Shown: piece by piece, positions 32,563 through 52,901 of the stretch
Layout of the letters: every line of letters starts with the position of its first letter
Numbering within the stretch: position 1 is the first letter of the stretch
Assembly (NCBI GenBank): GCA_029570205.1
Contig: JAKQSI010000050.1
Span: 3,842 to 67,841, forward strand
Length of the DNA: 64,000 bases
From: Candidatus Omnitrophota bacterium
GTDB lineage: Bacteria > Hinthialibacterota > Hinthialibacteria > Hinthialibacterales > JAKPRU01
Reading direction: 5' to 3'
Program-made: the position numbers and the translations under genes
Notes under the pieces: generated by a model
Told to the model about the DNA's origin: nothing
The model's input: the letters and a program-made list of their open reading frames with translations, nothing else
Database searches by the model: none

Positions 32563-32599
32563 CCTGGTTTTCCTGTGAGGTCCTCTCATGGTTTGCGAA

Positions 32600-33433
32600 T
32601 CAAATCGCACGCTGGGAGTTCTGATCGACAATCTCCCACGCCCCTTCGTATTCATAGTAGTCGAAAAGCGCAAGACCGGCGCGGTAATACTCGCCCATCC
32701 GGATCTGGTTCTTAACGCGACCTCGAAACACAATCAGAACATGGCAGGAGTTATCGTCCCGTTGAGGCTGAAGTGTCGGGAATATGATATGCAGTTCCTG
32801 GTTGAGATCAAAGCGGTCGGCGGTAAAAAACCCGACGCCGGAGAAACGCTCCAGGTCGATGTCATCGGTAATTGCCGGAGACCATTTACCAGAAACGAAT
32901 TCATGCGAGGAGATGGTCCGATAGAGCATCGGGAGAGGGACCGAGTGTCGTGTTGCCCGCCTGAGCTTGACCGTCTCGCCGCATTCCATGCAGGCATGTG
33001 CGCCCGGCCGCAGAACGGCCTTGCATTTCGGACATTTTTCCTCTTTGACTTTGTGAGCAGACTTCCATTGTTTCCGGACTTGCAGGGGAATATCGCTCCG
33101 TTCAATGAACGCGGTTTCATCGCAAAAGGGATCGACCTCGATTTGCTTGTCAAGTTGGGTGGCGGAGAACAGATCCTGAAGACGTTGCGGGATTCGAATG
33201 ACGCGAAGCCTGCCGCCGACCGCCGTTCTTCGGCTTGCCTCCTGTTCCAGGCAGGCAAGGCCGATCATCCCCACCAGGCCGACATTCTGGAAGTCCAGGA
33301 TGAGAGGCCGGTTGCGATTGCCGAGCGCATCAAAAGCCCGTTTGAGCTGAACCGCACCCTGGCGATCCAGGTCGCCTTCCAGCGTCAACGCCGTGGTTCT
33401 GCCATTATGGATGCGCTTGATCCTCATTTCCAT
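32600..33433 (-). CDS. STAS - zinc ribbon - PilZ-like regulator
   Basis: A 277-residue soluble protein of three parts. (1) An N-terminal STAS domain (1-105, 'LTLEGDLDRQGAVQLKRAF', 'LILDFQNVGLVG'), lacking the Asp-Ser-Ser-Gly phosphoacceptor of anti-anti-sigma factors. (2) A zinc ribbon with C134, C137, C148 and C151. (3) A PilZ-like C-terminus with 'RRATRHSVPLP' (R158, R159, R162) and 'RFSGVG' (196-201), where the usual D/N of D/N-x-S-x-x-G is Arg. It is the first gene of the operon with Wza and Wzc, so it plausibly couples c-di-GMP or a partner protein to EPS export. The assignments are by eye. Confidence 0.65.
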   Translation of the reverse strand: MEMRIKRIHNGRTTALTLEGDLDRQGAVQLKRAFDALGNRNRPLILDFQNVGLVGMIGLACLEQEASRRTAVGGRLRVIRIPQRLQDLFSATQLDKQIEVDPFCDETAFIERSDIPLQVRKQWKSAHKVKEEKCPKCKAVLRPGAHACMECGETVKLRRATRHSVPLPMLYRTISSHEFVSGKWSPAITDDIDLERFSGVGFFTADRFDLNQELHIIFPTLQPQRDDNSCHVLIVFRGRVKNQIRMGEYYRAGLALFDYYEYEGAWEIVDQNSQRAI

Positions 33434-36184: not shown

Positions 36185-37438
36185 TCACTCATTCGGAACG
36201 AGGTCGGTGCGGAAAGGCATGTAGGCGGTTCCCCGAATACCGCGTCCTTTCTCACCGGGTCGAACCATGAAAGGACACAAGCACTTGCGATAATCGGAAC
36301 CGAGCATGAAATTCATTGCGGACCCCGGCCCGGCATCCCGCTGGGTCAACGCCACGGAAAGGCTGTAATATCCCTCCAGCAGATTCAACTCCTCGATCAC
36401 AAAACGACAGATCCCCGTTCCCCGCAAAGCCGGCAGGTCTCCCCGGATGATATGCGTGCCGGTGGTAATCAAGGCGTTGTCATCGTCATCATGAATGGAA
36501 ATGCCGAACACCGGATCGGGATATTCCTCCGGGGAATGGTAATGCAGATCCACCCGCACCCAATCGCCGGTATCGAACACATAGCGCTCGTTGCCCTCTT
36601 TATCATACATTTTGACATCGGTGATCTGCGCGCGCATATCGCCGAACCGGTTCCGAAGGGAGACCTCCGGCGGCGGCGCGATTCCGGCTGCCCGGCTAAG
36701 TTCGAACAGGTGCTGACGGTACAGGCCGATCATCTCGTAGGGATGCCCTTGCCCGATGATCTCGCCGCGATCCATCACCACCGCCCGTGTACACAGTGCC
36801 AGGAGAACATCCAGGTCGTGCGAGACCAGGATGACGGTCTTGCCGGATGCTGCAATCTGCCGGAGATGGCTGACGCATTTCCGCTGGAACAGCTGATCTC
36901 CGACAGCCAGGATCTCATCGACCAGCAGGATGTCCGGCTCGACATACGCGCCCACGGCGAAACCCAGGCGCAAAAACATGCCGGAGGAATAATGTTTGAC
37001 CGGTGTGTCGATGAATTTCCCGATCCCGGAGAAGTCGATGATATCGTTTACCCTCGCCTTAAGCGTTGCCTCCGGGATGCCGAGGAGTGCGCCCGACAGG
37101 AAGATATTCTCGCGACCTGTCAAATCCGGGTGAAAGCCGACACCCACCTCCAGAAGGGATGCGATTGTGCCCCGGACGGTCAGCGTGCCGGAAGTGGGAT
37201 CGGTAATTCCCGCAATAACTTTCAACAGTGTACTTTTGCCGGACCCGTTATCCCCAATAATGCCGAGAATCTCGCCCGAATGGACATCGAGTGAAACCTC
37301 CCGCAGGGCCAGAAACTCCTCCGAGCGAACGCGGCGTGCCCCCCAGCGCAGGATTCTTTCTTTTAAAGTGGGATATTGCTCGTGGGAGAGATAGTAGCAT
37401 TTGGTGACGCGATCCAGGCGAACGACAGGCTGCGTCAT
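36185..37438 (-). CDS. ABC transporter ATP-binding protein, Wzt/TagH type (polysaccharide export)
   Basis: 417 residues. The ATPase domain (about 1-250) has Walker A 'GDNGSGKST', the family-specific signature 'HYSSGMFLRLGFAVG' and Walker B 'ILLVDEILAVGD'. The C-terminal ~150 residues form a Wzt_C-like beta-sandwich that in O-antigen exporters recognises the modified chain end ('YHSPEEYPDPVFGISIHDDD'). The partner permease (Wzm) is absent from the window. It overlaps argH by 4 bases (ATGA), so the two are translationally coupled. A surface glycan substrate is inferred from the family. Confidence 0.88.
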   Translation of the reverse strand: MTQPVVRLDRVTKCYYLSHEQYPTLKERILRWGARRVRSEEFLALREVSLDVHSGEILGIIGDNGSGKSTLLKVIAGITDPTSGTLTVRGTIASLLEVGVGFHPDLTGRENIFLSGALLGIPEATLKARVNDIIDFSGIGKFIDTPVKHYSSGMFLRLGFAVGAYVEPDILLVDEILAVGDQLFQRKCVSHLRQIAASGKTVILVSHDLDVLLALCTRAVVMDRGEIIGQGHPYEMIGLYRQHLFELSRAAGIAPPPEVSLRNRFGDMRAQITDVKMYDKEGNERYVFDTGDWVRVDLHYHSPEEYPDPVFGISIHDDDDNALITTGTHIIRGDLPALRGTGICRFVIEELNLLEGYYSLSVALTQRDAGPGSAMNFMLGSDYRKCLCPFMVRPGEKGRGIRGTAYMPFRTDLVPNE

Positions 37439-39664: not shown

Positions 39665-40180
39665 ATGAGCGCGGCCAAACGTGTGCTGATCTGTGAAGAT
39701 GATGCGGACGCCCGTCTCCTGATTCGTTCGATCCTGAACACCATCCATTTTGAAATCGCCGGAGAAGCGGAAACAGGAATACAGGCTTTAAATCTGTTCA
39801 GGGAAACAAGACCGGATATTGTCCTCCTGGACATTCAGATGCCGCAGGGGGACGGATTAACGGTGCTTCGATTCCTGCGCGAAATCGATCGGCAGGTCCG
39901 TGTGATTTTGCTTACAGCGGATGATACCTCCCATTCGGTGAACACGGCCTTGAAATTGGGAGCGAATGATTATGTCATTAAAAGTTCATTGACTACACCT
40001 CGATTCTTACAGGCATTGCAGGTAGACGGTGTGTCGCAGCCGGAAGAGTCCACAGGCGGAGAAAAATCCAAATCCGACGAGGCTGCCGATGAGGAAGCAA
40101 AGAGCAAAACGTCAGGGGATCCCCAGCGGCGTATGACCACCATGGAACGACGCGAAGAGAAAAATTCCAGCCGGCGGTGA
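39665..40180 (+). CDS. Response regulator, single REC domain with disordered tail
   Basis: 171 residues. The CheY-like domain (1-120) has the acidic pocket 'CEDDAD', phosphoacceptor D56 ('VLLDIQMP'), Thr in 'ILLTADD' and Lys in 'YVIKSSL'. It is followed by about 45 charged residues (Glu/Ser/Lys) without an output domain. The ATG at 39665 has AAGGAG 8 bases upstream. It is the first gene of the 39.7-48.7 kb cluster. Its REC domain is the closest relative in the window of the REC at the start of the 48795-50657 protein. Confidence 0.9.
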   Translation: MSAAKRVLICEDDADARLLIRSILNTIHFEIAGEAETGIQALNLFRETRPDIVLLDIQMPQGDGLTVLRFLREIDRQVRVILLTADDTSHSVNTALKLGANDYVIKSSLTTPRFLQALQVDGVSQPEESTGGEKSKSDEAADEEAKSKTSGDPQRRMTTMERREEKNSSRR

Positions 40181-40250
40181 TCTCCGCCCGCAACGATTTC
40201 GACCAGTTTTTCTATTCTCGATCGGACTGGGATAAACACAGGGAACGGAA

Positions 40251-40610
40251 ATGAATAACGAGAAGTGTATCGACCCCGCAGCGTTGGAACGGATTCGCGG
40301 CATCGGGGGGGACGATCTGCTGACCAAGATGATCGCCCTGTTTATTCAAAATGTAGAAAAGCGCCTTCAGGAAGCCTTGGAGGGGAAGGCGGCCGGGGAC
40401 TCGGAAATGATCGGTCGTGCGGCGCATTCCATCCGGTCCAGTTCGGGGAATGTGGGCGCGATGAGGCTTCAGCGGGTGGCATACGAGATCGAGCGGCTGG
40501 CGATGGAGGGAAATATCAACCGGGCCTGGGAGCGATTTGCCGAGTTGGAAAAAGTTTTCGCGGCAGTTAAAGCGCGTTTGACCGAGGAAGGAGAACAACC
40601 GGCACAATGA
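40251..40610 (+). CDS. Histidine phosphotransfer (Hpt) protein
   Basis: A 119-residue four-helix-bundle candidate with phosphoacceptor H59 in 'AAHSIRSSSGNVGAMRL', the Hpt signature. It carries phosphate between the cluster's kinase and its REC proteins. It overlaps the following response regulator by 4 bases, so they are translationally coupled and probably partners. Confidence 0.9.
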   Translation: MNNEKCIDPAALERIRGIGGDDLLTKMIALFIQNVEKRLQEALEGKAAGDSEMIGRAAHSIRSSSGNVGAMRLQRVAYEIERLAMEGNINRAWERFAELEKVFAAVKARLTEEGEQPAQ

Positions 40611-40972
40611 AGAAAATTACCGTAGTGGAAGACAATCCGGACAACCGGCTCCTGGTCCGGGCCATTCTGGAAGATCTTTACGAAATAGTGGAATACGAGA
40701 CAGGGAAGAATGCACTGGAAGGGATCAAACAAGCGAAACCGGATCTGGTCCTTCTGGATATCTCGCTTCCGGAGATGGATGGGATGGAAGTGCTGAGGCA
40801 AATCCGTGCCGATGCGGACCTGAAACAGCTTCGGGTGGTTGCCCTGACCGCTCATGCCATGGCCGGCGACCGGGAGAAGTTCCTGGAAGCGGGATTTGAC
40901 GGGTACGTCATAAAGCCGATTGTGGATGAATTCGCCTTGCTGGATATTATTCAAGCGCTTCTTGCGAAGTGA
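40607..40972 (+). CDS. CheY/DivK-like single-domain response regulator
   Basis: 121 residues. D51 in 'LVLLDISLPEMDG', the acidic pair in 'VEDNPDN', Thr in 'VVALTAHAM' and Lys in 'GYVIKPI'. The 'ALTAHAM' and 'KP' signatures place it among REC domains that receive phosphate from Hpt or hybrid kinases. No output domain, so it works by protein contact. It lies 7 bases before the histidine kinase gene. Confidence 0.92.
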   Translation: MKKITVVEDNPDNRLLVRAILEDLYEIVEYETGKNALEGIKQAKPDLVLLDISLPEMDGMEVLRQIRADADLKQLRVVALTAHAMAGDREKFLEAGFDGYVIKPIVDEFALLDIIQALLAK

Positions 40973-40979
40973 GAATGCC

Positions 40980-42926
40980 ATGACCGACAGCCCAGCGCCA
41001 CTCAATCGAGCGGCATTTTGGAAACGATTCTGGGTCGCGTTTCTGCCGTCTATGCTGCTTGTGTTCGGTATTTCTTTTCTTCTGCATCACGTGAGCGCCC
41101 ATTCGATAGAACCGTTTTCCGTCCGGAATGTGTTGCTGATCGACATCATTCTGGGGGTTGTCGTTGGAATCGTTTGTTTCCAGATTTCCCGTGAGGGATC
41201 CCGGAGAGAACAGGCAAAGGAAGATCTTGAGAAAGCGGTTACTGCATTGGAGGAACGGATTCAGGATCGGGTTGCGGTTCTCCGGGAGACTAACGAATGG
41301 CTTCAACAGGAGATTCAACAGCGGGGACAAGCCGAGAAGGCGCTGACGGAAGCGCATTTGCAAATTCGTGGTTTGCTGGATGCCGCAACGAGAGTGTCCA
41401 TGATTTCCACCGATCCGAACGGGATCATCACATTTTTCAATAAGGGCGCGGAACGACTCTTGGGATACAAGGCGGAAGAATTGGTCGGGCGGAAGACCCC
41501 CGAACTGTTTCATCTCAAATCCGAAGTCATCGCACATGGAGAGGAACTGTCACGGGAGTTTCATCGTTCCATCGAAGGATTCGAGGTCTTTGTGGCCCGT
41601 GCGCGGGAGGGAGGACATGAGGAACGCGAATGGACATACATTCGGAAGGACGGAACTTACCTCACAGTCATCTTATCGGTTACCGCCGTTCGCGATAAGG
41701 CAGGCGAGATCACCGGCTATCTGGGAATTGCGCAGGATATTACGGAGAGGAAACGGGCCGAGAAGGCCCTGCAGGAAAGCGAGGAACGACTGCAAGACTT
41801 TCTCGACAACGCCATCAGTCTGATTCAAAGTGTCTCGCCCGACGGTCGTTTTCAATATGTCAACGCGGCCTGGAAACGAACGCTGGGATACCGGGACGAG
41901 GATCTGGCCGAATTACACTATTTTGATGTGGTCTGCCCGGATGAGCGGGAGCATTGCATGGACACTTTCCGGCGGGTCCTCAAAGGAGAGGTCTTGCGGG
42001 ATATTGAAACGGCGCTTGTCGCGAAAGATGGCCGTCGGATTCCTGTCTCCGGAAGCGCGAACTGTCGTTTTGAGGACGGAAAACCGGTGGTGATCCGCAG
42101 CATGTTTCGAGATATCACAGAAAGCAAACGCGCCGCGGAAGAACTGCAACGCGCGAAAGAGGAGGCCGAGGCCGCCAATAAGGCCAAGAGTGTTTTTCTG
42201 GCCAACATGAGCCACGAGCTGCGGACCCCGCTCAACTCGGTCATCGGTTTCTCCAATATCCTCCTCAAAAACAAAACGGGAAATCTCACCGATCAGGATT
42301 TGTCATTCTTACGAAGGATTCTGGACAACGGCAAGCATCTCTTGAACTTAATCAATGATATTCTGGACCTCTCGAAGGTGGAGGCGGGCCGCATGGAAGT
42401 GGTGAAATCCACGACGGATCTCCACGCGTTGATCGTCGATATTATTGCGCAGTTCGAAGGACAACTGCGGGGGCGGGACCTGGACCTTGTGACCGACGTC
42501 CCCCAGCCCCTGGCCACGATCCAGGCAGATACCGGAAAACTCAAGCAGGTTATCATCAACCTGATCGGCAATGCGATCAAATTCACCGAGAAGGGAACGG
42601 TTACGGTTCGGGTTGTCACAGACCCGACGACCCGTCAACCGATACGAATCGAGATTTCCGATACGGGGATCGGCATTCCGAAGGAGAAATTGGGTGATGT
42701 TTTTGAAGCGTTTCTGCAAGCCGAAGCCTCGACGAACCGAAGGTACGGCGGGACGGGGCTGGGATTGAGCATCTCACGGGCGTTCTGCGAGATGATGGGA
42801 TACGCACTTGAAGTGGCCAGTGAGGTCGGCAAGGGATCAACGTTCAGCATTGTGCTTCATCCGTCCAAGGAATCAAGGAAGCTGGATGGGCACGAAAACA
42901 CGGTTGAAAGCATGGCAATACAATAA
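40980..42926 (+). CDS. Membrane sensor histidine kinase with two PAS domains
   Basis: 648 residues. Two membrane helices (about 10-35 and 50-72) with a short external loop, a coiled coil (about 75-125), PAS1 ('TRVSMISTDPNGIITFFNKG') and PAS2 ('ISLIQSVSPDGRFQYVNAAW'), each ending in a 'DITE+K' linker. HisKA carries the phosphorylated H412 in 'MSHELRTPLNSVIGFS'. The ATPase shows the N box 'NLIGNAIKFTEKG', G1 'DTGIGIPKEKLG' and G2 'GGTGLGLSISRAF'. It has no receiver of its own, so phosphate must pass to the separate REC and Hpt proteins around it. The start at 40980 avoids overlap with the upstream gene. Confidence 0.93.
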   Translation: MTDSPAPLNRAAFWKRFWVAFLPSMLLVFGISFLLHHVSAHSIEPFSVRNVLLIDIILGVVVGIVCFQISREGSRREQAKEDLEKAVTALEERIQDRVAVLRETNEWLQQEIQQRGQAEKALTEAHLQIRGLLDAATRVSMISTDPNGIITFFNKGAERLLGYKAEELVGRKTPELFHLKSEVIAHGEELSREFHRSIEGFEVFVARAREGGHEEREWTYIRKDGTYLTVILSVTAVRDKAGEITGYLGIAQDITERKRAEKALQESEERLQDFLDNAISLIQSVSPDGRFQYVNAAWKRTLGYRDEDLAELHYFDVVCPDEREHCMDTFRRVLKGEVLRDIETALVAKDGRRIPVSGSANCRFEDGKPVVIRSMFRDITESKRAAEELQRAKEEAEAANKAKSVFLANMSHELRTPLNSVIGFSNILLKNKTGNLTDQDLSFLRRILDNGKHLLNLINDILDLSKVEAGRMEVVKSTTDLHALIVDIIAQFEGQLRGRDLDLVTDVPQPLATIQADTGKLKQVIINLIGNAIKFTEKGTVTVRVVTDPTTRQPIRIEISDTGIGIPKEKLGDVFEAFLQAEASTNRRYGGTGLGLSISRAFCEMMGYALEVASEVGKGSTFSIVLHPSKESRKLDGHENTVESMAIQ

Positions 42927-42935
42927 TGGAAATGC

Positions 42936-42958
42936 TCCCTCTCCTATCGGGAGAGGGT
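42936..42958. repeat. CCCTCTCC-TATC-GGGAGAGGG hairpin between two signalling genes
   Basis: A copy of the dispersed palindrome in the 61-base gap between the histidine kinase and the Hpt-REC-GGDEF-REC gene. It could form a hairpin in the operon mRNA. Confidence 0.5.
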
Positions 42959-42987
42959 ACAGCCGGCAACAGCGGCAGGGAACCAAT

Positions 42988-44535
42988 ATGCCCGACATGG
43001 ATGAAGAACTGAAAGCGCACTACCGGCAGGGACTTCGCGCGCGGATTGAGGCCCTGGAGGCGGTCCGAGCAGCCTTGCCGGAAGTTGCGCCGGAAGCGAT
43101 TGAGCAGGTGAAGCGAACGGCCCATTCTTTGCGCGGTTCCGGAGCGACCTACGGATTCCCGCAGATCAGCCGGGTCGCGGAGGTCCTGGAATCCGCGAAC
43201 GACAAGGATTTCCCCGAAGCGCTCGGCAGACTGATCGAGGTCCTGTGGGAAACGGTCTCCGAGGAACAGAAAACAAGAAACACCGTCCTGATTGTCGAAG
43301 ACGATCCGGATATCACACACCTTTTCCAGGTCCGTCTCTCCGCCCCGGGACGAAGGATCCTGTTTGCGGAGACTTCTAAAGAGGCACAGAGAATCCTGCA
43401 ACAGGAATCCATCTCGCTTATCTTGCTGGACCTTGTTCTGCCGGATATAGACGGTCGGCGGTTCCTGGAGATTCTGCGGGAACAGCCGCATACAGCGGAA
43501 ATCCCGATTTTTGTCGTTTCCGGGGGATTGGGGAAACAGACACGGGAAGAATGTCTCGCCCTCGGAGCGGAGGCCTATTTCGAGAAACCTTTCGATCCGG
43601 CGGTGATATCGAAAGCGATCTCGATCAGGTTGCTCGAAACCGCAAGACCGGCTCAGGAACCGTATCAAGACCCCATGACCGGACTCCCCAACCGAGCGGC
43701 CCTGAAAAACTCTTTCACGGATATGTTGGAAAAGACAACCCGTGCGCAGCAATCGCTGTCTCTCGCCATTATCGACATCGACCATTTTGAATCCATCAAG
43801 AATGCCTACGGCCACACGGCTGTGGAAACGGTATTGAAAGAGACCGCCGCCGCGATTGCGCAATCGGTTCGAACCGAGGATTTCCTGGCCCGCTGGGGCG
43901 AACAGGAATTCTGCCTTTTGTCTCCAAACCTCTCGAAAGAGGAAACCGCGCAACGCCTCGATAACGCGCTCAAGATCCTTCGGTCGAAGCGCTTCCGTCT
44001 CAAGGAAGGCCGAACGTTCCAGGTTGGATTTTCGGCAGGAGTCACGGACGTGACCGATGATATCTCCCTGGAAGACATCGTCACAGAAGCGGGGAGATAT
44101 GTTTATCAGGCCAAGACATCGGGTCGAAACCGGGTCATGTTTTCAAAAGGCCCGGAGGAAACAATCGACAAGAAAATCCTCCTGGCGGAGGATGATGACC
44201 TGATTGCCTCTATTATTGTGCATCGCCTGAAGCGGGAGGGATTCGAGGTAATTCATACGTCTGATGGGGTATCCGCACTCGAGGCGGCCAGAGAATCTCC
44301 GTATTCCATGATTATCGCGGATGTGAAGATGCCGGCCATGGACGGTTTTGAACTGCTTACCGAGTTACGCAAGGACTCCTCGTTCAGTTCCGTGCCGATT
44401 GTGATGCTCACGGCGATGGGGAGCGAGAAAGACATACGACGCGGATTCGATCTGGGTGCGGACGACTATATCCCGAAACCTTTTTCGCCGATCGAACTTC
44501 TGGCACGAATTCGGCGCTTATTGAAGAGACGATGA
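42988..44535 (+). CDS. Hpt-REC-degenerate GGDEF-REC signalling protein
   Basis: 515 residues: Hpt (1-90, H46 in 'AHSLRGSGATYGF'), REC1 (97-215, D148), a GGDEF domain (225-385) and REC2 (395-515, D445). The GGDEF domain keeps 'DPMTGLPNR' and 'DIDHFESIKNAYGH', but the catalytic loop reads R-W-G-E-Q-E-F (304-308 GEQEF) and the later 'GD' is 'VE'. Diguanylate cyclase activity is therefore probably lost, and it may bind nucleotide or protein instead. Hpt and two receivers in one chain make it a hub of the phosphorelay. It overlaps the next REC gene by 4 bases. Confidence 0.88.
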   Translation: MPDMDEELKAHYRQGLRARIEALEAVRAALPEVAPEAIEQVKRTAHSLRGSGATYGFPQISRVAEVLESANDKDFPEALGRLIEVLWETVSEEQKTRNTVLIVEDDPDITHLFQVRLSAPGRRILFAETSKEAQRILQQESISLILLDLVLPDIDGRRFLEILREQPHTAEIPIFVVSGGLGKQTREECLALGAEAYFEKPFDPAVISKAISIRLLETARPAQEPYQDPMTGLPNRAALKNSFTDMLEKTTRAQQSLSLAIIDIDHFESIKNAYGHTAVETVLKETAAAIAQSVRTEDFLARWGEQEFCLLSPNLSKEETAQRLDNALKILRSKRFRLKEGRTFQVGFSAGVTDVTDDISLEDIVTEAGRYVYQAKTSGRNRVMFSKGPEETIDKKILLAEDDDLIASIIVHRLKREGFEVIHTSDGVSALEAARESPYSMIIADVKMPAMDGFELLTELRKDSSFSSVPIVMLTAMGSEKDIRRGFDLGADDYIPKPFSPIELLARIRRLLKRR

Positions 44536-44897
44536 AGATTATCCTGGTAGACGATGATTCTGATATGCTGTTCCTGACCTCAATGGCGCTGGAGAGAATC
44601 GGCGGGCATGAAGTGGTAGGCTTTCACTCGGCGAATGACGCGCTCGAATATGCGCGAGCAAATCCGCCGGATGCTATTCTGACAGATTACTTGATGGAAG
44701 ACATGGATGGGCCTGAATTTCTGAGCCGGATTCTGGCCCAGGAAGAGACCGCCCGTATTCCGGTTGTGTTTCTGACAGCGAAAACGGATGCGAATACCGC
44801 GGAGCGATTGAGGACCCTGGGGGCGAAGGGGATGATCCGCAAACCGTTCGATCTCATGAAGATTGCAGAGGAATTCGAACGGATTCTTGCGGGATGA
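44532..44897 (+). CDS. Single-domain response regulator
   Basis: 121 residues: acidic pocket 'VDDDSD', D52 in 'AILTDYLMEDMDG', Thr in 'VVFLTAKTD', Lys in 'GMIRKPFD'. It has no output domain. It is translationally coupled to the upstream Hpt-REC-GGDEF-REC gene and followed after 15 bases by the HEAT membrane protein, suggesting that it may signal directly to the EPS synthase subunits by protein contact. Confidence 0.92.
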   Translation: MKIILVDDDSDMLFLTSMALERIGGHEVVGFHSANDALEYARANPPDAILTDYLMEDMDGPEFLSRILAQEETARIPVVFLTAKTDANTAERLRTLGAKGMIRKPFDLMKIAEEFERILAG

Positions 44898-44912
44898 TCA
44901 CGGAGATCCTCA

Positions 44913-45989
44913 GTGCGTATTTTCGAGACGGAGTATTTTGCGGACCTGTCTTTTCAGCATCGGGTATTGTTTCTGCTTTCCCTGGCGATTGTTTTTTTGT
45001 TGTTCTGTTCCGTGATCTTTGCGGTCTATGCGATCCTGCTGCGGATTCGCAACAATCGGAAAGCCGCATACTGGAAGCGTCTGGAAGCTGCTTGGGAAGA
45101 GACGATCCTGGAAGTCTTGTCCGGGGAAAAGCAACCCTCGGAGCTTCAGCAGCGGGTGGGGCGGAAAGACACGTTGTATTTTGTGGATTTTGTCTTGCGG
45201 TATGCGCGTCAACTGCGGGGACAGGAACGGGAGATCCTGACCGAGGTGGTACGTCCGTTTCTCGGCCGGATTGCAGAGCGAACCGTGGGCGGTGACGCGG
45301 AACGTCGCGCCCGCGCAGTACGGACAATCAGCGCGCTGGGTTTTGAGGAATACACGGATCGTATTATTGCGGCTCTGGACGACCCGTCGCCGCTGGTGGC
45401 GATGATTGCCGCTCGCGCTCTCGCGCAGAAAGAGCATCCGCAATATGCCGTGCAGGTTCTCAAGCGTCTTCATCGATTTCAGGGCTGGAGTCGGAGTTAT
45501 ATGGCGACGATGCTTTCGGCGGTCGGGCCGCAGATTGCTCCTGCGCTGCGGGAGACACTGTTGGATGCCGGTCAGCCGCCGCAAGCCCGCGCCGTAGCCG
45601 CCGAAGCGCTTCGGGAGTTGAACGAATTCACCGCAGCGGATGATGCGGCCCGTATTCTGACAAGCGAACACGACCGGGACTTGCTGGCATCCTGCCTCCG
45701 GCTTCTGGCACAGACCGGTCGCCCGGAACATTTGCCCGTTATCCGCCCCCTTCTGAAATCGCCCGACTTTGTGGTTCGAGCGCAGGCGGTGGGAGCGCTG
45801 GGCGCTATTGGAGACGAGCAGGAAATCCCGTTTCTGCGAGACGCCTTTGAAGACCCATCCCCCTGGGTGGCAATTCAGGCCGCCCAGGGGTTGAAAGAGT
45901 CCGGCGGAGTGAAGGTCCTCGAACGGATCGCCGATTCGGACCATCCACGCGCCGATCTAGCCAGGCAAATCCTGGTGGGAGAGAACTGA
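44913..45989 (+). CDS. Membrane-anchored HEAT-repeat protein
   Basis: 358 residues. One membrane helix (about 17-43, 'VLFLLSLAIVFLLFCSVIFA'), then a cytoplasmic helical region with at least six HEAT/PBS-lyase-type repeats ('RAVRTISALGFEEYTDRII', 'LVAMIAARALAQKEHP', 'VVRAQAVGALGAIGDEQEIP', 'WVAIQAAQGLKESGGV'). The start is GTG at 44913 with GGAG upstream. It lies 2 bases before the glycosyltransferase gene. HEAT-GT2-YaiO gene trios recur in several phyla by my recollection. Its likely role is a docking scaffold between a response regulator and the synthase. Confidence 0.88.
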   Translation: MRIFETEYFADLSFQHRVLFLLSLAIVFLLFCSVIFAVYAILLRIRNNRKAAYWKRLEAAWEETILEVLSGEKQPSELQQRVGRKDTLYFVDFVLRYARQLRGQEREILTEVVRPFLGRIAERTVGGDAERRARAVRTISALGFEEYTDRIIAALDDPSPLVAMIAARALAQKEHPQYAVQVLKRLHRFQGWSRSYMATMLSAVGPQIAPALRETLLDAGQPPQARAVAAEALRELNEFTAADDAARILTSEHDRDLLASCLRLLAQTGRPEHLPVIRPLLKSPDFVVRAQAVGALGAIGDEQEIPFLRDAFEDPSPWVAIQAAQGLKESGGVKVLERIADSDHPRADLARQILVGEN

Positions 45990-45991
45990 CC

Positions 45992-47410
45992 ATGGTGAAA
46001 GCGCTTTGGGCGTTTGTCTGGTTTTGCAATGCCCTGGTAATCGGATACTTCATTACCATCAGCGCCGTGTATTTTCTGACCAGCTTGCTGGCATTTGGAG
46101 CGCTGCGTAACTATGTCCGGCGGCTCCATTCTCTGGATACAAGAGAGCTGATCACCTCTGCCGGTGCGCCGCCCATCACCTTGCTGGTCCCCGCGTACAA
46201 TGAGGAAGCCACCTGTGTGGAATCCACCCGGTCATTCCTGACCCTGGAGTATCCCGAGTATGAGGTTCTGGTTGTGAATGACGGATCTCGGGATCGAACG
46301 CTGAACCGCCTTACGGAGGCGTTCGACCTGGCTCCGACGGTGCGTGCGCCGATGGCGGAAATTCGCACCGCGCGCATCCGGGGCATTTATCGCAGCCGTC
46401 GGTATCCGAATCTCTGGGTGGTTGATAAGGAGAACGGCGGTAAGGCGGACTCGCTGAACGCCGGTCTGAGTTTCTGCCGGACCTCTTTGTTTTGCGCCTT
46501 GGACGCCGATAGTCTGATCGAGCGGGAAGCGCTGGTCCGTGTGGCGCGGCTGTTTCTGGAAGACCGAACAACGGTAGCCGCAGGCGGGATGATTCGCATT
46601 GTGAACGGCTGCACGATCCGCGCGGGAATGGTAACCGATATTCGGCTGCCGGAAAACTACCTGGCACGATTTCAAGTATTGGAATACCTGCGGGCTTTTC
46701 TCGCCGGCCGAATGGGATGGAGCGTGCTGAATGCCACGTTTGTCATCTCCGGCGCGTTTGGGGTGTTCCGACGGTCCACAGTAGTCGATGCGGGTGGATT
46801 TGCCGTCGACACCGTGGGGGAAGATATGGAACTGGTCGTTCGACTCCATCGCTACTGTCGAGAGAACAAGATCCCGTACCGGATCGCCTACATGCCTGAT
46901 CCGGTCGCCTGGACGGAGTGCCCCGAATCGACACGGGTCCTGGGCCGTCAGCGCGACCGCTGGCAGCGCGGGCTGATGGAGACAATGTGGCGGCACAAAC
47001 GGATGCTGTTGAATCCACAGTATGGAATAATCGGACTCCTGGTTTATCCGTACTTTTTCTTCCTGGAGATGCTCGGTCCCATTATTGAATTCATGGGGTA
47101 CATTTCATTCCTGATTGTTTTATTCCTGGGTTCGCCCGAGATGATATACATTGTGGCGTTTCTTCTGGTCGCGTTTGTACTGGGTGTGGCGTTGTCGCTG
47201 GCGGCCGTAGGCCTGGAAGAGATTTCGTTCCGCCGGTATCCGCGAACCGCCGACCTGGTCGGATTATTTCTCCTGGCCGTCCTGGAGAACTTCGGCTATC
47301 GACAGATGAATATCTGGTGGCGATTCCGTGCGGTGTATTCCAAGATCCGCGGCGTGAAAGGGTGGGGAAAAATGGAACGGAAAGGATTTACTACGCAGGC
47401 AAGTAAATGA
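45992..47410 (+). CDS. Processive family 2 glycosyltransferase (membrane EPS synthase)
   Basis: 472 residues. An N-terminal membrane helix (about 8-35), a GT-A domain (60-300) and three to four C-terminal helices (about 340-440). GT2 motifs: 'LVPAYNEE', 'VVNDGSRDRT', 'NGGKADSLNAG', the DxD-type 'ALDADS', 'GEDMEL' and the processivity motif 'QRDRWQRGL'. This is the layout of BcsA, NodC, HasA and PgaC synthases that polymerise and extrude beta-linked polysaccharide from UDP-sugars. No PilZ domain is present, so c-di-GMP control, if any, is indirect. It overlaps the YaiO gene by 4 bases. Confidence 0.92.
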   Translation: MVKALWAFVWFCNALVIGYFITISAVYFLTSLLAFGALRNYVRRLHSLDTRELITSAGAPPITLLVPAYNEEATCVESTRSFLTLEYPEYEVLVVNDGSRDRTLNRLTEAFDLAPTVRAPMAEIRTARIRGIYRSRRYPNLWVVDKENGGKADSLNAGLSFCRTSLFCALDADSLIEREALVRVARLFLEDRTTVAAGGMIRIVNGCTIRAGMVTDIRLPENYLARFQVLEYLRAFLAGRMGWSVLNATFVISGAFGVFRRSTVVDAGGFAVDTVGEDMELVVRLHRYCRENKIPYRIAYMPDPVAWTECPESTRVLGRQRDRWQRGLMETMWRHKRMLLNPQYGIIGLLVYPYFFFLEMLGPIIEFMGYISFLIVLFLGSPEMIYIVAFLLVAFVLGVALSLAAVGLEEISFRRYPRTADLVGLFLLAVLENFGYRQMNIWWRFRAVYSKIRGVKGWGKMERKGFTTQASK

Positions 47411-48693
47411 GTCCGATATCTTTTTGCATTTTGCTGTCCACGATATCTGTGTCGCCCTTTACCGGGGCGGACCAGGCATTAGCGCGCGGAGAGTACGACA
47501 CGGCGATTCGCGAATACCGTCGCGTTCTCGAAACGGAACCGAAATCTTACGAGGGGCGGTTCGGACTGGCACGCGCGCTCTATTACACAGGAAAACACGC
47601 CGAAGCGGTCGAAGTCTGCTCATCGATTCTGGAGGATACGCCGAGGGATCCCGATACCCATCTCTTGCGGGGACGCGCACTGGCGGTTCAGGAACGTTTT
47701 GAAGAGGCAGAGAAGGACTTGCTTTTCGTGGCAGAAAACTACCCGAAATATGGCGATGCCTGGTCGGCTCTTGGTGATGTCTATCTCTGGTCGAAACGAC
47801 CGGAACAGGCAGCCCAGGCCTACACGAAATGGATCGAGTTGGAACCCGATAATCCCGATGCATACCTGGCCCGGGCAAAAGCCTATCGGGAGAACCGGCA
47901 ATTTTCGCTTACCCGCCGAGACCTGGCTGCCGCGCGCTCGAAGGGCGGCGATACAGACGAGATCGACCGGATATCAAACGGATTGAACCGGATACCGGAT
48001 GCCCTCCCGTGGGAATTCGGTATGAATTATTCTTATCAATCCTTCAACGAAGACCGCGCAGATTGGCATGAGACCAAGGTGTACGTACAGCGGAGTTTTT
48101 CGCGAGGTTCCCTGGCGGTGGAATCCATCCGAGTCCGACGGTTCTCGTCCTGGGATGAGGCGGTGGCGCTGGACGGCTACCTGGATCTCTGGCCGGATGC
48201 ATACATCAATCTTCGGGGCCAGGTTACCCCCGAAGCCGATGTGCTCTCCGATTCGGAATATGCGGTAGAGTTGTTCCAGGGATTCGGCGACGGCTGGGAA
48301 ATTTCCGGCCGATACAACTATCGAAATTACCCCGATAACAATCTCGATATCTATGGAATCTCGTTGGGAAAATACCTGGGGGACTGGTATCTTCGCGCGC
48401 GGGCCTCTTTTTTGCCGGAGGATGACCACACACTGGACTCTTACGGAGTAACCGTTCGACGTTATTTGACTGCGGCGGATGATTTTATCGAGATCAACGC
48501 CGGGCGCGGCAAGGAGATGGTAACGATCGGCGCAGGCCCGCAGATCGAGACCCATCGCACGTATTCCTTTTCCTTCCGGTTACAGAAATTCGTTACCCCG
48601 CATTGGGGATTTACCCTGGGGGCCAATTACGACGATCAGGAAGAATTACCTGTAGGACGCGGCGTGTCAGCGGGAATTATCACACGCTGGTAG
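47407..48693 (+). CDS. TPR plus YaiO-type outer-membrane beta-barrel
   Basis: 428 residues. A signal peptide (about 1-21), four TPRs (25-180, 'ALARGEYDTAIREYRRVLE'), then a C-terminal barrel domain (about 200-428) with alternating aromatic strands such as 'GMNYSYQSFNE', 'GRYNYRNYPDNN' and a terminal 'GVSAGIITRW'. The last residue is Trp, typical of barrels handled by BamA. TPR + YaiO matches the architecture of PgaA/AlgK-AlgE-like exporters. It is coupled to the GT2 synthase gene, so it is the likely exit channel for its polymer. Confidence 0.9.
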   Translation: MSPISFCILLSTISVSPFTGADQALARGEYDTAIREYRRVLETEPKSYEGRFGLARALYYTGKHAEAVEVCSSILEDTPRDPDTHLLRGRALAVQERFEEAEKDLLFVAENYPKYGDAWSALGDVYLWSKRPEQAAQAYTKWIELEPDNPDAYLARAKAYRENRQFSLTRRDLAAARSKGGDTDEIDRISNGLNRIPDALPWEFGMNYSYQSFNEDRADWHETKVYVQRSFSRGSLAVESIRVRRFSSWDEAVALDGYLDLWPDAYINLRGQVTPEADVLSDSEYAVELFQGFGDGWEISGRYNYRNYPDNNLDIYGISLGKYLGDWYLRARASFLPEDDHTLDSYGVTVRRYLTAADDFIEINAGRGKEMVTIGAGPQIETHRTYSFSFRLQKFVTPHWGFTLGANYDDQEELPVGRGVSAGIITRW

Positions 48694-48726
48694 TTCTTGG
48701 TGGCGTGGATATCTACCCCCTCAATC

Positions 48727-48774
48727 TCCCCGTAAACGGGGGGACTTCTTCTCCCTCCCCGTTTACGGGGAGGG
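48727..48774. terminator. GC-rich palindrome between convergent genes
   Basis: 48753-48774 is a perfect palindrome with a 10-bp stem (CCCTCCCCGT and its complement), preceded by a related half-copy at about 48727-48741. It lies in the ~100-base gap between the convergent YaiO and REC-unknown genes and could terminate both, but there is no clear T-run. Confidence 0.4.
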
Positions 48775-48794
48775 CCGGGGGGAGGTCTGTTGCC

Positions 48795-50657
48795 TCACGT
48801 CTCCTCATACTTCTCCCGATACTTCTGTTTCAGCCGTTCCTTTTCCGCCGCCCGTCTTCGTTTAACAATGTCTTCCTCGCTTACTTCCTCGGTCTGCTTA
48901 CTTTTCGCCGGTAGTTTATCCACAGCGGAATATCGTTGTGTGATCCGGCGGAGCAATTCTTTAACATAGCTCGGGTTGGATTCATTGATATCGAGTGTCC
49001 TCAGTTCGTCACAGGCTTCTCGGTACAGGAACGGATACGCTTTCTCGATGGCCTGAAGTCCGTTTCCGCTCAAGAGTTCTTTGACATGATTCCCCCTTGA
49101 ATAAACATCCGAGCGAGACCCCAGGGTCGGTTCCAGCCGCAGAGAAAGATATCTGGCCAACAGCGTGTTGAGCAGCAGGGGACGCATCAAGTCGGGAAGC
49201 CGGACGGAGTCGAATCGGCGGGTGAGTTCCTCGATGGAGAAAACAGTGTATCCCTTGTCATCGAATATATCTATCGGATCCAGCGAGTTCTTTAAGCCAT
49301 ATCGATGTCTCTGGCCGTGCGTGATAAGTAAAGAAAATGTTCCGAATTCGGTCAGTTGAAGCAGGGGGATGACAGAGAGGGACCAGCGATTCTGGAAATG
49401 CTTGAGATGCGGGGCATACGACCGTCCGTCCATCCAGTAATACAGATCGGCCCGCTCCTCGCTGCTTGCTTCATTATCCGAGAGAGAAGAGGTCACGGCC
49501 AGGTATGTTTCCGGGGCTGCCGGGCAAGGCAGAAGCCGCAAGGAGCCGAAAATGACGGCCTTGGGGATTCCCTGCCAACTTGCGTAATCCCGCACATCGC
49601 GGATGTGGAGTCGCATTCGTTCTATCCGGGGCCGGGAGTTGCCGGATTGCTCCAGGATGGAAAGGATATTGAACGCGGAAAGAAACAGGCAGGTCTCGAG
49701 CGTGAGACCGTTGAAACTGCACACGTAGCCGGGCAATTCCTGACATTCCATATCGGCATTCAGGGGGTACTGATTCGGCAGGGATGGGAGGGTTCGAGCA
49801 TGTTCCGTGTCGTACACGGTATAGGGACGGCCATCGGGCGCTAATCCGGGCGGCAGGGATTCAAGTTCCGCCGGCGCGTGTTGGCGAACAGCGAAGGACA
49901 TAGACTCCATGCGGCTGATATTGGGTTTCGGTTCCAGGCTCAATTCATATATGCCGCCGGTCATTCCCTGGTCGTAGAGAATACCGGGGATTTCTTTGGA
50001 TCCCTCGATTTTCTTGAACAGCCCCATGAAGAAATTGGGATGGCGAAGGATTTCCCGGTATGTGCTTCTGACCTCGCCTTCCTCGCGGGATGCGCTGAGC
50101 GGGTGATAGAAAAAGAGGCTTCCATGGTCGTTTGCATGCAACCCCCCCGTGATATACACCTTGTCATAGCCCGGCAATCTGTCGGCCACCACTTTCACGG
50201 CCTGATTGGTTTCGGTAATGAATTCTTCTACAGAAGAAGGTGGCCTGGCGGAAGGCATGGAGAATCCGGCGGCACGGTTGACAACAGATAGCAGGTGACG
50301 GGGGTCGAGGAACCGTTTTGCGATATAGCCTTTCGCGCCCAAACTGATAGCGGTGTGGACGGATTCACTGGTGTTATCCGCAGTCAGCATGATGATGCAG
50401 AGTTTCGGGTCGATCTCGCGGAGGACCGGCAGAATGGTCAGTCCGTTTCCAAGCGGCATACGCACATCCAGAATCAGGATTTCCGGACGTTTTTCGACGA
50501 CCTGCAGGATTGTGTCTACCCCGGTTTTGGCCTCTCCGCAGACATTGTAGCCGTTACGCTCGAAGAGTGTCTTGAGTATCAACAGGGTATCGGAATCATC
50601 ATCGCTCAGGAGGATTCGCGGAGCTGGGGATGTTTGGGGAATTGACTGGTCGTTCAT
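48795..50657 (-). CDS. Response regulator with large uncharacterised output region
   Basis: 620 residues. A REC domain (about 12-130; acidic 'SDDDSD', Asp in 'LILDVRMPLGNG', Thr in 'IMLTADN', Lys in 'GYIAKRF') is followed by ~490 residues that I cannot assign. This region has mixed alpha/beta blocks such as 'DKVYITGGLHANDHGSLFFY', 'GYVCSFNGLTLETCLFLSAF' and 'AVIFGSLRLLPCPAAPETYL', and ends in a charged coiled coil rich in Lys/Arg/Glu (about 585-620). No DNA-binding, kinase, GGDEF or phosphatase motif seen. It is convergent with the EPS cluster, and its REC is related to that of the 39665 protein. Confidence 0.85.
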   Translation of the reverse strand: MNDQSIPQTSPAPRILLSDDDSDTLLILKTLFERNGYNVCGEAKTGVDTILQVVEKRPEILILDVRMPLGNGLTILPVLREIDPKLCIIMLTADNTSESVHTAISLGAKGYIAKRFLDPRHLLSVVNRAAGFSMPSARPPSSVEEFITETNQAVKVVADRLPGYDKVYITGGLHANDHGSLFFYHPLSASREEGEVRSTYREILRHPNFFMGLFKKIEGSKEIPGILYDQGMTGGIYELSLEPKPNISRMESMSFAVRQHAPAELESLPPGLAPDGRPYTVYDTEHARTLPSLPNQYPLNADMECQELPGYVCSFNGLTLETCLFLSAFNILSILEQSGNSRPRIERMRLHIRDVRDYASWQGIPKAVIFGSLRLLPCPAAPETYLAVTSSLSDNEASSEERADLYYWMDGRSYAPHLKHFQNRWSLSVIPLLQLTEFGTFSLLITHGQRHRYGLKNSLDPIDIFDDKGYTVFSIEELTRRFDSVRLPDLMRPLLLNTLLARYLSLRLEPTLGSRSDVYSRGNHVKELLSGNGLQAIEKAYPFLYREACDELRTLDINESNPSYVKELLRRITQRYSAVDKLPAKSKQTEEVSEEDIVKRRRAAEKERLKQKYREKYEET

Positions 50658-50788: not shown

Positions 50789-51853
50789 TCAATCAAACGA
50801 CTCCATCCGACTAAACAGGTGATTCCGGGTAGTCAGAACGAATGTAGTCTGCGCATCGGCGGCTTTTTTCAGCGCTTCAAGAGAACGGAGAAACTCATAG
50901 AATTCCGGATCGCTCTGGTAGCCGAGAATCTGGCGTGTTTCTTTTGTCTCCGGGTCGGTTTCGACGAACCCCTGGGCATAGACTCTCAGAGCCTCCGCTT
51001 CCCCTTCTCCCTCCATGACCCGCGCTTTGCGATAGGCATCGGCCTGCATGATTCGGACCTGCTTATCGGTTTCCGCTTTAATTTTAGTTTGTTCGGCCTT
51101 TCCCTGTTCCTCATATTTCATGGCGATTCGCTGACGCTCGGACTGCATTCGGTCATAGATTTTCTGGATATTCTCTTCCGGCAACTCCACGCGCTGTATG
51201 CGGACATCGATCACCAGGACGCCAAACTGCCGCGCAAGCGGCTGACATTGCCGAGTGACTTCTTTCATAATCTCTTCCCGACCGCCTTCAACAGGGGTCA
51301 CCGTGTCGCTGAGCGGGACTTCCAGTTCACGTTCCAAAATCCGGTTGGAGGTTCGAATGACCGCCTGGTAGTCCCGTCGGCCCAGCTCTCTGCGAATTAC
51401 GGAATAAATGATGTCATCCAGGCGAGTTTGGGCTTCCTGCTCGGTGCGGACATTTTGCATGAACCGCAAAGGGTTTGTGATACGCCACCGTGCGAAGTTA
51501 TCCACAATCAGGGTTCGCTTATCGCCGGTCGTGATGGGCCGCGGATCGGACTCATATTCAAGCAATCGATTGTCAAAACGGGTTGCTTGTTGTAAAAACG
51601 GGATTTTGAAAGCGAGTCCCGCCCCGAAACGGACATCCACGTCCAAGCCGGACTGTCGATTCATTTCCTCAATTTCTTTGCGGATCGCCTGCCTTTCTTC
51701 CTCATCACGCGCACCGGAAATTACCCGGACCGGTCGGCCCCATTGTGTGATCACAATCTGGTCTCGTTCGGTGACGATGAACAGGCAGCTGCCGATAAGG
51801 ATTGCGACAATCGCCGCACCGACAAGTAGAGTTATTTTGTGAACCTGGCTCAT
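50789..51853 (-). CDS. hflC: HflC-type SPFH membrane protein
   Basis: 354 residues. One N-terminal membrane helix (about 8-27), then the SPFH domain ('VITQWGRPVRVI', 'ARWRITNPLRFMQNV', 'VLVIDVRIQRVELPEE') and an Ala/Glu-rich coiled coil ('KAEQTKIKAETDKQVRIMQA'). It ends in the conserved 'FYEFLRSLEALKKAAD'. HflC forms a cage with HflK around the FtsH protease in the periplasm. It follows hflK by 4 bases. Confidence 0.93.
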   Translation of the reverse strand: MSQVHKITLLVGAAIVAILIGSCLFIVTERDQIVITQWGRPVRVISGARDEEERQAIRKEIEEMNRQSGLDVDVRFGAGLAFKIPFLQQATRFDNRLLEYESDPRPITTGDKRTLIVDNFARWRITNPLRFMQNVRTEQEAQTRLDDIIYSVIRRELGRRDYQAVIRTSNRILERELEVPLSDTVTPVEGGREEIMKEVTRQCQPLARQFGVLVIDVRIQRVELPEENIQKIYDRMQSERQRIAMKYEEQGKAEQTKIKAETDKQVRIMQADAYRKARVMEGEGEAEALRVYAQGFVETDPETKETRQILGYQSDPEFYEFLRSLEALKKAADAQTTFVLTTRNHLFSRMESFD

Positions 51854-51857
51854 AAGG

Positions 51858-52901
51858 TCACCTCTGTTCGGTTCCTGCAGGTTGGTTGATCGACTGCGGC
51901 TCGGAGAACGGGCTGCGCACTCCCGCTCCTTTCAGTTCCTGGAGATTCAGGAGTTTAAAGATATCCTGATCTGCGCCAAGGATGATTTTTTCTTTTCCGG
52001 GCAGGATTTCCTCCATGGTCTCGAGATACAGGCGGGTCTTGGTCACTTCTTTGGCCGCCTGGTATTCGCGCAAAATCCGGTCGAATTTCTCCACCTCTCC
52101 TTTGGCCTCAATGATCCGCTGCTCCTTTTTTGCCTCGGCGTCGTTGAGGGTTTTTGCGACGGTTCCCTCGACCTTGGCCAGTTCGCTGTTCTTGTATCCC
52201 TCGGCTTCGTTGATATACCGCTCGAAGGACTGGCGTGCGTTCTCCACCTCTCGGAACGAACCGGCAACGGCCGCCGGCGGAGACACATCCTGCAACTGAA
52301 CAGCCACAATGGCTACACCAAGACCATAGAGATCGGCCAACTCCTGGAGTTTCTGGAAGATTTCAGTCTCGATAGCCGCTTTATCGCGAGTGAGTGGCGC
52401 GTCGATTTCGTAATCCCCTACCACCTGACGTGTGGCGGCTTCCGCCAGATTCTTCAATGTCGAGTCCGGGTTGCGAACATCGAACCGGTATCGGAAAGCA
52501 TCCGAGACCCGGTATTGCACCGCCAGCCCGATCAGCACGACGTTCTGATCGCCGGTCAGCATGACCTGTTCGCCGGGCACTTGCCGGGTCTCTGTGTGAA
52601 GATCCACCTGTGTCGATCGATACCCCAATTCGATGCGCTTGATCTCTGTGACCCGCTCCAACTCGACCGTCTCGATAGGCCACGGCCACCGGAAATGAAT
52701 GCCCGGACCGGCGGATCGCACATACCGACCGAATCGAAGAACTAATCCCTGCTCCTCGGTTCCGACTGTAAACCACGGCCGACCGGAAACGATCACAATC
52801 AGAATCACGATCCCCAGGAGCGCATAGAGAAACCACTTCGCCCTTGGAGACCGGGTTCGCAGCACGATTGTGCCGTCTTTATCCGTGAACCAGTCTTTCA
52901 T
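51858..52901 (-). CDS. hflK: HflK-type SPFH membrane protein
   Basis: 347 residues. A membrane helix (about 24-44), then the SPFH domain ('GLVLRFGRYVRSAGPGIHFR WPWP' type start), 'GDQNVVLIGLAVQYRV', 'GVAIVAVQLQDVSPPAAV' and 'YINEAEGYKNSELAKVEG', the HflK signature. It lacks the Gly-rich N-terminus of the E. coli protein. It is the partner of HflC in controlling FtsH and membrane protein quality. It follows yicC by 12 bases, so yicC-hflK-hflC is one operon. Confidence 0.93.
   Translation of the reverse strand: MKDWFTDKDGTIVLRTRSPRAKWFLYALLGIVILIVIVSGRPWFTVGTEEQGLVLRFGRYVRSAGPGIHFRWPWPIETVELERVTEIKRIELGYRSTQVDLHTETRQVPGEQVMLTGDQNVVLIGLAVQYRVSDAFRYRFDVRNPDSTLKNLAEAATRQVVGDYEIDAPLTRDKAAIETEIFQKLQELADLYGLGVAIVAVQLQDVSPPAAVAGSFREVENARQSFERYINEAEGYKNSELAKVEGTVAKTLNDAEAKKEQRIIEAKGEVEKFDRILREYQAAKEVTKTRLYLETMEEILPGKEKIILGADQDIFKLLNLQELKGAGVRSPFSEPQSINQPAGTEQR

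Follow-up and report, generated by a model that had tools for sequence, protein, structure and literature searches.

We consider it fairly probable that nine contiguous plus-strand genes in the window (the whole 64,000-nucleotide stretch of DNA analyzed here) form a synthase-dependent polysaccharide system, in which a receiver (REC) protein fed by a phosphorelay acts through a membrane-tethered HEAT adaptor on a GT2 synthase. At this locus a gene ending in REC precedes a TM-HEAT gene and a GT2 gene, these genes are translationally coupled, the phospho-acceptor residues are intact, and the synthase carries no PilZ domain. The same tight gene order recurs widely among bacteria and extends to some archaea, suggesting that the product is a phosphorylation-switched surface polysaccharide. 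That the module represents an undescribed and widespread synthase class of bacteria and archaea, in which a phosphorelay gates activity by way of a REC docked on a membrane-anchored HEAT protein in place of c-di-GMP, is a broader proposal to which we give an even chance.

The genes were defined from reading frames and Pfam domains (Table 1). The plus-strand run, at 39,665 to 48,693, has the order REC, Hpt, REC, PAS kinase, Hpt-REC-GGDEF-REC hub with a degenerate GGDEF, REC, TM-HEAT, GT2 and TPR-YaiO, and each of the ten proteins of the region is borne out as a genuine reading frame with the domains described. A preliminary description had listed ten contiguous plus-strand genes; its gene contents were right, but only nine lie on that strand, with one convergent REC gene on the minus strand. 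Its account of most junctions as 4-base overlaps or gaps under 20 bases applies to the ATGA overlaps at 40,607, 44,532 and 47,407 and to the gaps of 7 bp before the kinase gene, 15 bp before the HEAT gene and 2 bp before the GT2 gene, but not to the 70 bp ahead of the Hpt gene P0002 or the 61 bp ahead of the hub gene P0005. The three overlaps and three short gaps are consistent with a single transcript. Pfam detected no DNA-binding output domain in this operon. Signalling genes are plentiful in this region of the window. The convergent gene, P0010, does encode a REC with a long output as first described, but it is genus-specific (a counterpart at the same place occurs only in the relatives L031 and L032), and we rejected it as a module part, to which it probably does not belong.

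Table 1. Features of the locus, with positions in the window.
Feature	Description	Positions	Strand	Basis or remark
P0001	Single REC, charged C-terminal tail	39665-40180	+	PF00072, 90 bits
P0002	Hpt phosphotransfer protein	40251-40610	+	PF01627, 51 bits
P0003	Single REC	40607-40972	+	PF00072, 93 bits
P0004	PAS-PAS-HisKA-HATPase sensor kinase without receiver	40980-42926	+	Pfam
P0005	Hpt-REC-GGDEF-REC hub, GGDEF degenerate	42988-44535	+	Pfam; motif alignment
P0006	Single REC adjoining HEAT	44532-44897	+	PF00072, 82 bits; ATGA overlap with hub
P0007	Putative HEAT adaptor	44913-45989	+	PF13646, 85 bits
P0008	Polysaccharide synthase of processive GT2 type, without PilZ	45992-47410	+	PF13641 and others
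P0009	Signal peptide-TPR-YaiO outer-membrane barrel	47407-48693	+	TIGR04390, 132.7 bits (cut-off 32)
Hairpin	Terminator-like	48725-48744	+	3' of YaiO stop, operon end
P0010	REC with ~480 aa output of unrecognised type	48795-50657	-	Convergent; Pfam, only REC

The synthase P0008 contains the D, DxD, ED and Q(R)xRW motifs of processive GT2 enzymes. The corresponding residues (D97, D171xD173, E277-D278 and Q320RxR323W324) are all present, and they are invariant in 69 homologues. PilZ was absent from the Pfam matches of 69 GT2 proteins, and none of the ten window proteins matched PilZ, PgaD, Alg44 or PelD, a search that could leave an unrecognised c-di-GMP binder. The HEAT protein P0007 was modeled with high confidence (AlphaFold2 with 67 homologues, pLDDT 96.6) as a single helix at residues 2-69, which includes a membrane span, followed by a HEAT solenoid. 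The N-terminal hydrophobic span is found in 105 of 107 HEAT relatives, and orthologues at the same place within the genus and order are 99, 84, 55, 51 and 44% identical. Family-specific conserved positions of the HEAT protein include G103, R132, W192 and W318, which are candidate binding residues.

To determine how often these genes occur together, we carried out two surveys, both queried with an alignment of the GT2. Scan A took the best 80 GT2 loci in 84,980 species genomes (43-67% identity) and is biased toward GT2 proteins close to the query; scan B, which is unselected and found this GT2 in 34 (9%) of 386 genomes sampled broadly, corrects for this bias and gives a lower REC adjacency. We counted only loci with at least 1.9 kb upstream and searched for two-component domains from -8 to +6.5 kb. 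In scan A, HEAT was present in 71 of 72 loci, a REC no more than 500 bp ahead of HEAT in 58/72 and any two-component domain in 67/72; for scan B together with the window and its close relatives, the values were 33/34, 18/34 (adjacent REC) and 27/34. Of the combined 106 loci, 104 have HEAT as the gene directly upstream of GT2, 76 have a REC in the 500 bp preceding HEAT, and 94 have a two-component gene nearby. As controls we used twenty other PgaC-like GT2 genes drawn from a comparable genome sample, a few of them with short upstream stretches; none had HEAT, none had a REC, and 5 had any two-component gene (Fisher p = 3e-21, 6e-10 and 2e-8, respectively, with relatedness ignored). The preliminary description would have been refuted had most trios lacked signalling genes, which is false: 94 of 106 loci have two-component genes nearby and 76 have a REC immediately ahead of HEAT. 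If signalling and polysaccharide genes without any relation had instead come together in this operon by chance, for which the abundance of signalling genes in the region might speak, one would not expect an order that is kept across many phyla and found in none of the 20 controls; this survey contradicts such a reading, and we regard it as having a negligible probability.

Scan A loci were assigned to Gemmatimonadota, Neomarinimicrobiota, Acidobacteriota, Bacteroidota, Ignavibacteria, Actinomycetota, Bacillota, Deinococcota, Bdellovibrionota, proteobacteria and archaeal MAGs, with the caveat that MAG labels can be wrong. They include the isolates Solirubrobacter, Desulfosporosinus, Clostridium caldaquaticum, Halolactibacillus, Thermus and Lysobacter, and a complete Bdellovibrio chromosome. 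The module is also present in haloarchaea. Among plasmid records searched by protein, NCBI annotation gives HK-REC-REC-YaiO-HEAT-GT2-Hpt in Mesorhizobium ciceri, HK-REC-HEAT-GT2-HK in Haloarcula halophila, REC-HEAT-GT2 in Salinirubellus, REC-TPR-HEAT-GT2 in Erythrobacter, and REC-x-HEAT-GT2 followed by a sugar nucleotidyltransferase and GlmS in Halosolutus. In this set, HEAT was recognized by its model in 12 of 12 records and REC was upstream in 7 of 12.

When REC was counted one gene further up (within 2 kb, as a YaiO gene is sometimes inserted), 85 of 102 loci had one, and in the other 17 the 2 kb ahead of HEAT held no REC on the same strand. Approximately one quarter of loci, mostly the more distant ones, have HEAT-GT2 without an adjacent REC; examples with no REC nearby are Legionella adelaidensis, Deinococcus radiophilus, Bacteroides finegoldii and Planococcus. 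REC becomes less frequent as loci grow more distant from the query (75/87, 15/21 and 2/8 in three bands of GT2 score), and its presence requires at least 16 changes on the GT2 tree. These data indicate a HEAT-GT2 core to which REC coupling is usual, and from which it has been repeatedly lost or gained.

Where a REC does adjoin HEAT, several features suggest an output. The preceding gene varies (REC alone, 50; Hpt-REC-REC, 8; Hpt-REC-GGDEF-REC, 5; Hpt-REC, 5; others including REC-GGDEF-REC), and in all 78 cases it ends in a REC, followed by no more than 20 residues. The HEAT start comes after a median of 1 bp, the two genes overlapping in 38 of 78 cases, and the HEAT and GT2 genes overlap in 81 of 111. 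The phospho-accepting Asp is kept in 74/78 of these receivers, Lys in 77/78, Thr/Ser in 77/78 and Pro in 74-78/78; in P0006 the acidic pair, the phospho-Asp, Thr/Ser and Lys-Pro are all present, as expected of a phosphorylatable receiver. Its invariably terminal position, close coupling to HEAT and retained phospho-acceptor make a P0006-type REC look like the output, and P0006 is likely the output switch and control point of the module. HEAT-adjacent RECs are also nearest to each other in 62 of 75 cases, compared with 13 of 156 for other RECs; when close GT2 relatives are excluded, the values are 28/75 and 19/156. By mirror-tree analysis, the HEAT tree is closely correlated with that of GT2 (r = 0.85), and REC-HEAT gave r = 0.33, falling to ~0 once GT2 was controlled for, in a test of low power on a domain of ~110 residues, which adds no support for a REC-HEAT contact. 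None of 116 loci contained a natural REC-HEAT or HEAT-GT2 fusion. One frame joining GT2 to YaiO, at locus L102, is possibly an assembly artefact.

Upstream of P0006, the signalling genes are partly shared with relatives. A REC occupies the position of P0001 in the genus relative L031; an Hpt is found at the place of P0002 in L031, L033, L044, L047 and L050; and P0003 is 87% identical to its equivalent in L031 and 64% in L033. The kinase P0004 has hydrophobic segments at its N-terminus, and its place is taken by kinase-REC-REC hybrids in L033, L044 and L045. The hub P0005 has a degenerate GGDEF motif, as first described (RWGEQEF, with GEQEF where a diguanylate cyclase would have GG[DE]EF). In an alignment of 26 hubs, the motif is intact in 10 and degenerate in 16. 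On this count we rejected GGDEF output as the general signal of the module, although some members may make c-di-GMP. The earlier proposal that the phosphorelay replaces c-di-GMP/PilZ control is borne out as far as the missing PilZ on the synthase, but the intact motif in 10 of 26 hubs makes it too absolute.

An alternative is that HEAT is a GT2 subunit with a constitutive role in assembly or stability, and that the co-transcribed phosphorelay controls the same behaviour with its output elsewhere (transcription, motility, or c-di-GMP from hubs with an intact GGDEF). The presence of HEAT in nearly all loci and of adjacent REC in about three quarters, the REC-less HEAT-GT2 pairs of the outer relatives, the REC-HEAT partial correlation of ~0 and the intact hubs all fit this alternative. 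However, a REC-ending gene, with REC always last, is directly coupled to HEAT in both bacteria and archaea, and the window has a degenerate hub GGDEF and an operon free of DNA-binding output, so we consider the alternative unlikely while giving it some weight.

From these data, we propose that the sensor kinase P0004 would pass phosphate to the carriers P0003/P0001, P0002 and the Hpt and RECs of the hub P0005, in an order that we infer, and that these would pass it to the stand-alone REC P0006. P0006~P would then dock on the membrane-tethered P0007 and switch it, and P0007, predicted to pair with the inner-membrane P0008, would gate chain synthesis and translocation post-translationally. We also considered that the REC-HEAT pair might set the location of the synthase, such as a pole or adhesion site, and leave its catalytic rate unaffected. 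Fold searches with P0007 returned generic HEAT, alphaRep, importin and PP2A-A scaffolds, a binding solenoid indicating no specific known partner, and single-domain RECs can work via protein-protein contacts (PMC12802240), both of which suit a role in location. Yet we found no sequence pointer to polarity factors, and haloarchaea and Bacillota have the pair as well; we consider a purely positional role improbable and retain gating of P0008 by P0007 as the proposed mechanism.

In outer-membrane bacteria, the TPR-YaiO barrel would carry the chain across the outer membrane. P0009 is predicted to form a TPR region and a 14-strand barrel (AlphaFold2, pLDDT 90.7), and its top PDB fold match is BcsC. 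YaiO was found near the GT2 in 25 of 45 outer-membrane lineages and in 0 of 14 monoderm or archaeal ones (assigned from organism names), the pattern expected of an outer-membrane exit part. YaiO is an add-on of outer-membrane lineages, outside the conserved REC-HEAT-GT2 unit, which corrects the HEAT-GT2-YaiO trio of the preliminary description. No periplasmic modification enzymes were detected by Pfam at 39,665 to 48,693, and varied enzymes lie near other loci (sulfatase/LTA-synthase-like, DUF4838, amidohydrolase and unknown families, and in Halosolutus GlmS and a nucleotidyltransferase). The polymer is perhaps one of hexosamine or hexose.

E. coli YaiP-YaiO likewise combines a GT2 with a YaiO barrel (family TIGR04390), and we know of no HEAT protein or phosphorelay adjoining yaiO/yaiP. 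Five synthase-dependent systems have been listed, Bcs, Pga, Alg and Pel among them, and these typically have a c-di-GMP-binding part (PMC7112194) and are typically controlled via c-di-GMP (PMC7112194, PMC12802240). Like these four, the window operon encodes a processive inner-membrane GT2, a periplasmic TPR and an outer-membrane barrel. It differs from them in having TM-HEAT and phosphorelay RECs in place of any detected PilZ or c-di-GMP-binding subunit, a predicted barrel of 14 rather than 16-18 strands, and no modification enzyme, and from Pga in that P0008 scores far below the cut-off of the PgaC/IcaA model TIGR03937 (130.7 vs 422.3 bits).

In Myxococcus xanthus, the phosphorylated single-domain regulator EpsW activates the sugar transferase EpsZ post-translationally (PMC12802240), a control of exopolysaccharide similar to the one we propose for the window; by analogy, we would guess that REC~P activates the synthase. 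However, EpsW targets the phosphoglycosyl transferase that initiates a Wzx/Wzy pathway, with neither HEAT adaptor nor processive synthase, and the window RECs fall far below the cut-off of 200 of the EpsW model NF041866 (P0003 scored 57.8, and EpsW was not among the 25 matches listed for P0006). We found no description of the module in a search confined to an open-access library with few subscription papers or preprints, which is not proof of absence, and we rate the module as an apparently undescribed variant of the synthase-dependent polysaccharide systems. The preliminary description of a polysaccharide synthesis and export machine tied to a phosphorelay agrees with our data, with the REC beside HEAT as the likely control point and a synthase free of PilZ. 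If the proposal is correct, the module would add a further class to the five listed in PMC7112194, REC-HEAT-GT2 would be a second general wiring of signals to surface-polymer synthesis, and many proteins annotated as "HEAT repeat domain-containing" or as single-domain "response regulator" would gain a function. The module can be tested in culturable strains.

P0010, the convergent gene beyond the operon end, encodes a receiver domain (REC) followed by ~480 aa without a recognised domain, and its conservation is limited to the genus, where identity is 82-97%. Downstream of it by window coordinates, two SPFH/Band 7 proteins lie side by side. The window, which carries the polysaccharide synthase GT2 and the outer-membrane barrel YaiO, also holds a second, different route for polysaccharide export, consisting of a Wza-type protein (Poly_export/SLBB) and a nearby Wzt-type ABC ATPase.

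Table. Coordinates of features in the window and in surveyed loci holding GT2 relatives
Feature	Location	Coordinates	Strand
P0010	window	48795-50657	-
SPFH/Band 7 pair	window	50789-52901	-
Wza-type protein	window	31414-32733	-
Wzt-type ATPase	window	36185-37438	-
~400 aa protein	L039	12821-14056	
	L044	12669-13874	
	L045	12913-14100	
	L050	11338-12534	
	L051	7747-8943	
~700-740 aa protein	L070	11421-13574	
	L078	5835-7955	
	L136	4114-6336	
	L065	11462-13684	
GT2/YaiO-like frame	L102	9081-11210	

Among the surveyed loci, two neighbour proteins recur. One, of ~400 aa, lies beside GT2 or YaiO in several loci, and comparison of its L044 copy with Pfam gave no match. The other, of ~700-740 aa, adjoins HEAT-GT2 in Gram-positives and others; by eye it appears glycosidase-like, and Pfam comparison of the L070 copy gave no match.

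We also observed REC-HEAT-GT2 on haloarchaeal plasmids (L169, L170 and L176; Haloarcula, Salinirubellus and Halosolutus). As GlmS and nucleotidyltransferase genes also adjoin the unit in Halosolutus, an amino-sugar polymer is hinted at there. At L142, a HEAT protein of ~1200 aa lies upstream of a divergent member of the window GT2 family, and at L102 a single open frame, either a natural fusion or an assembly error, holds GT2 and a YaiO-like stretch.
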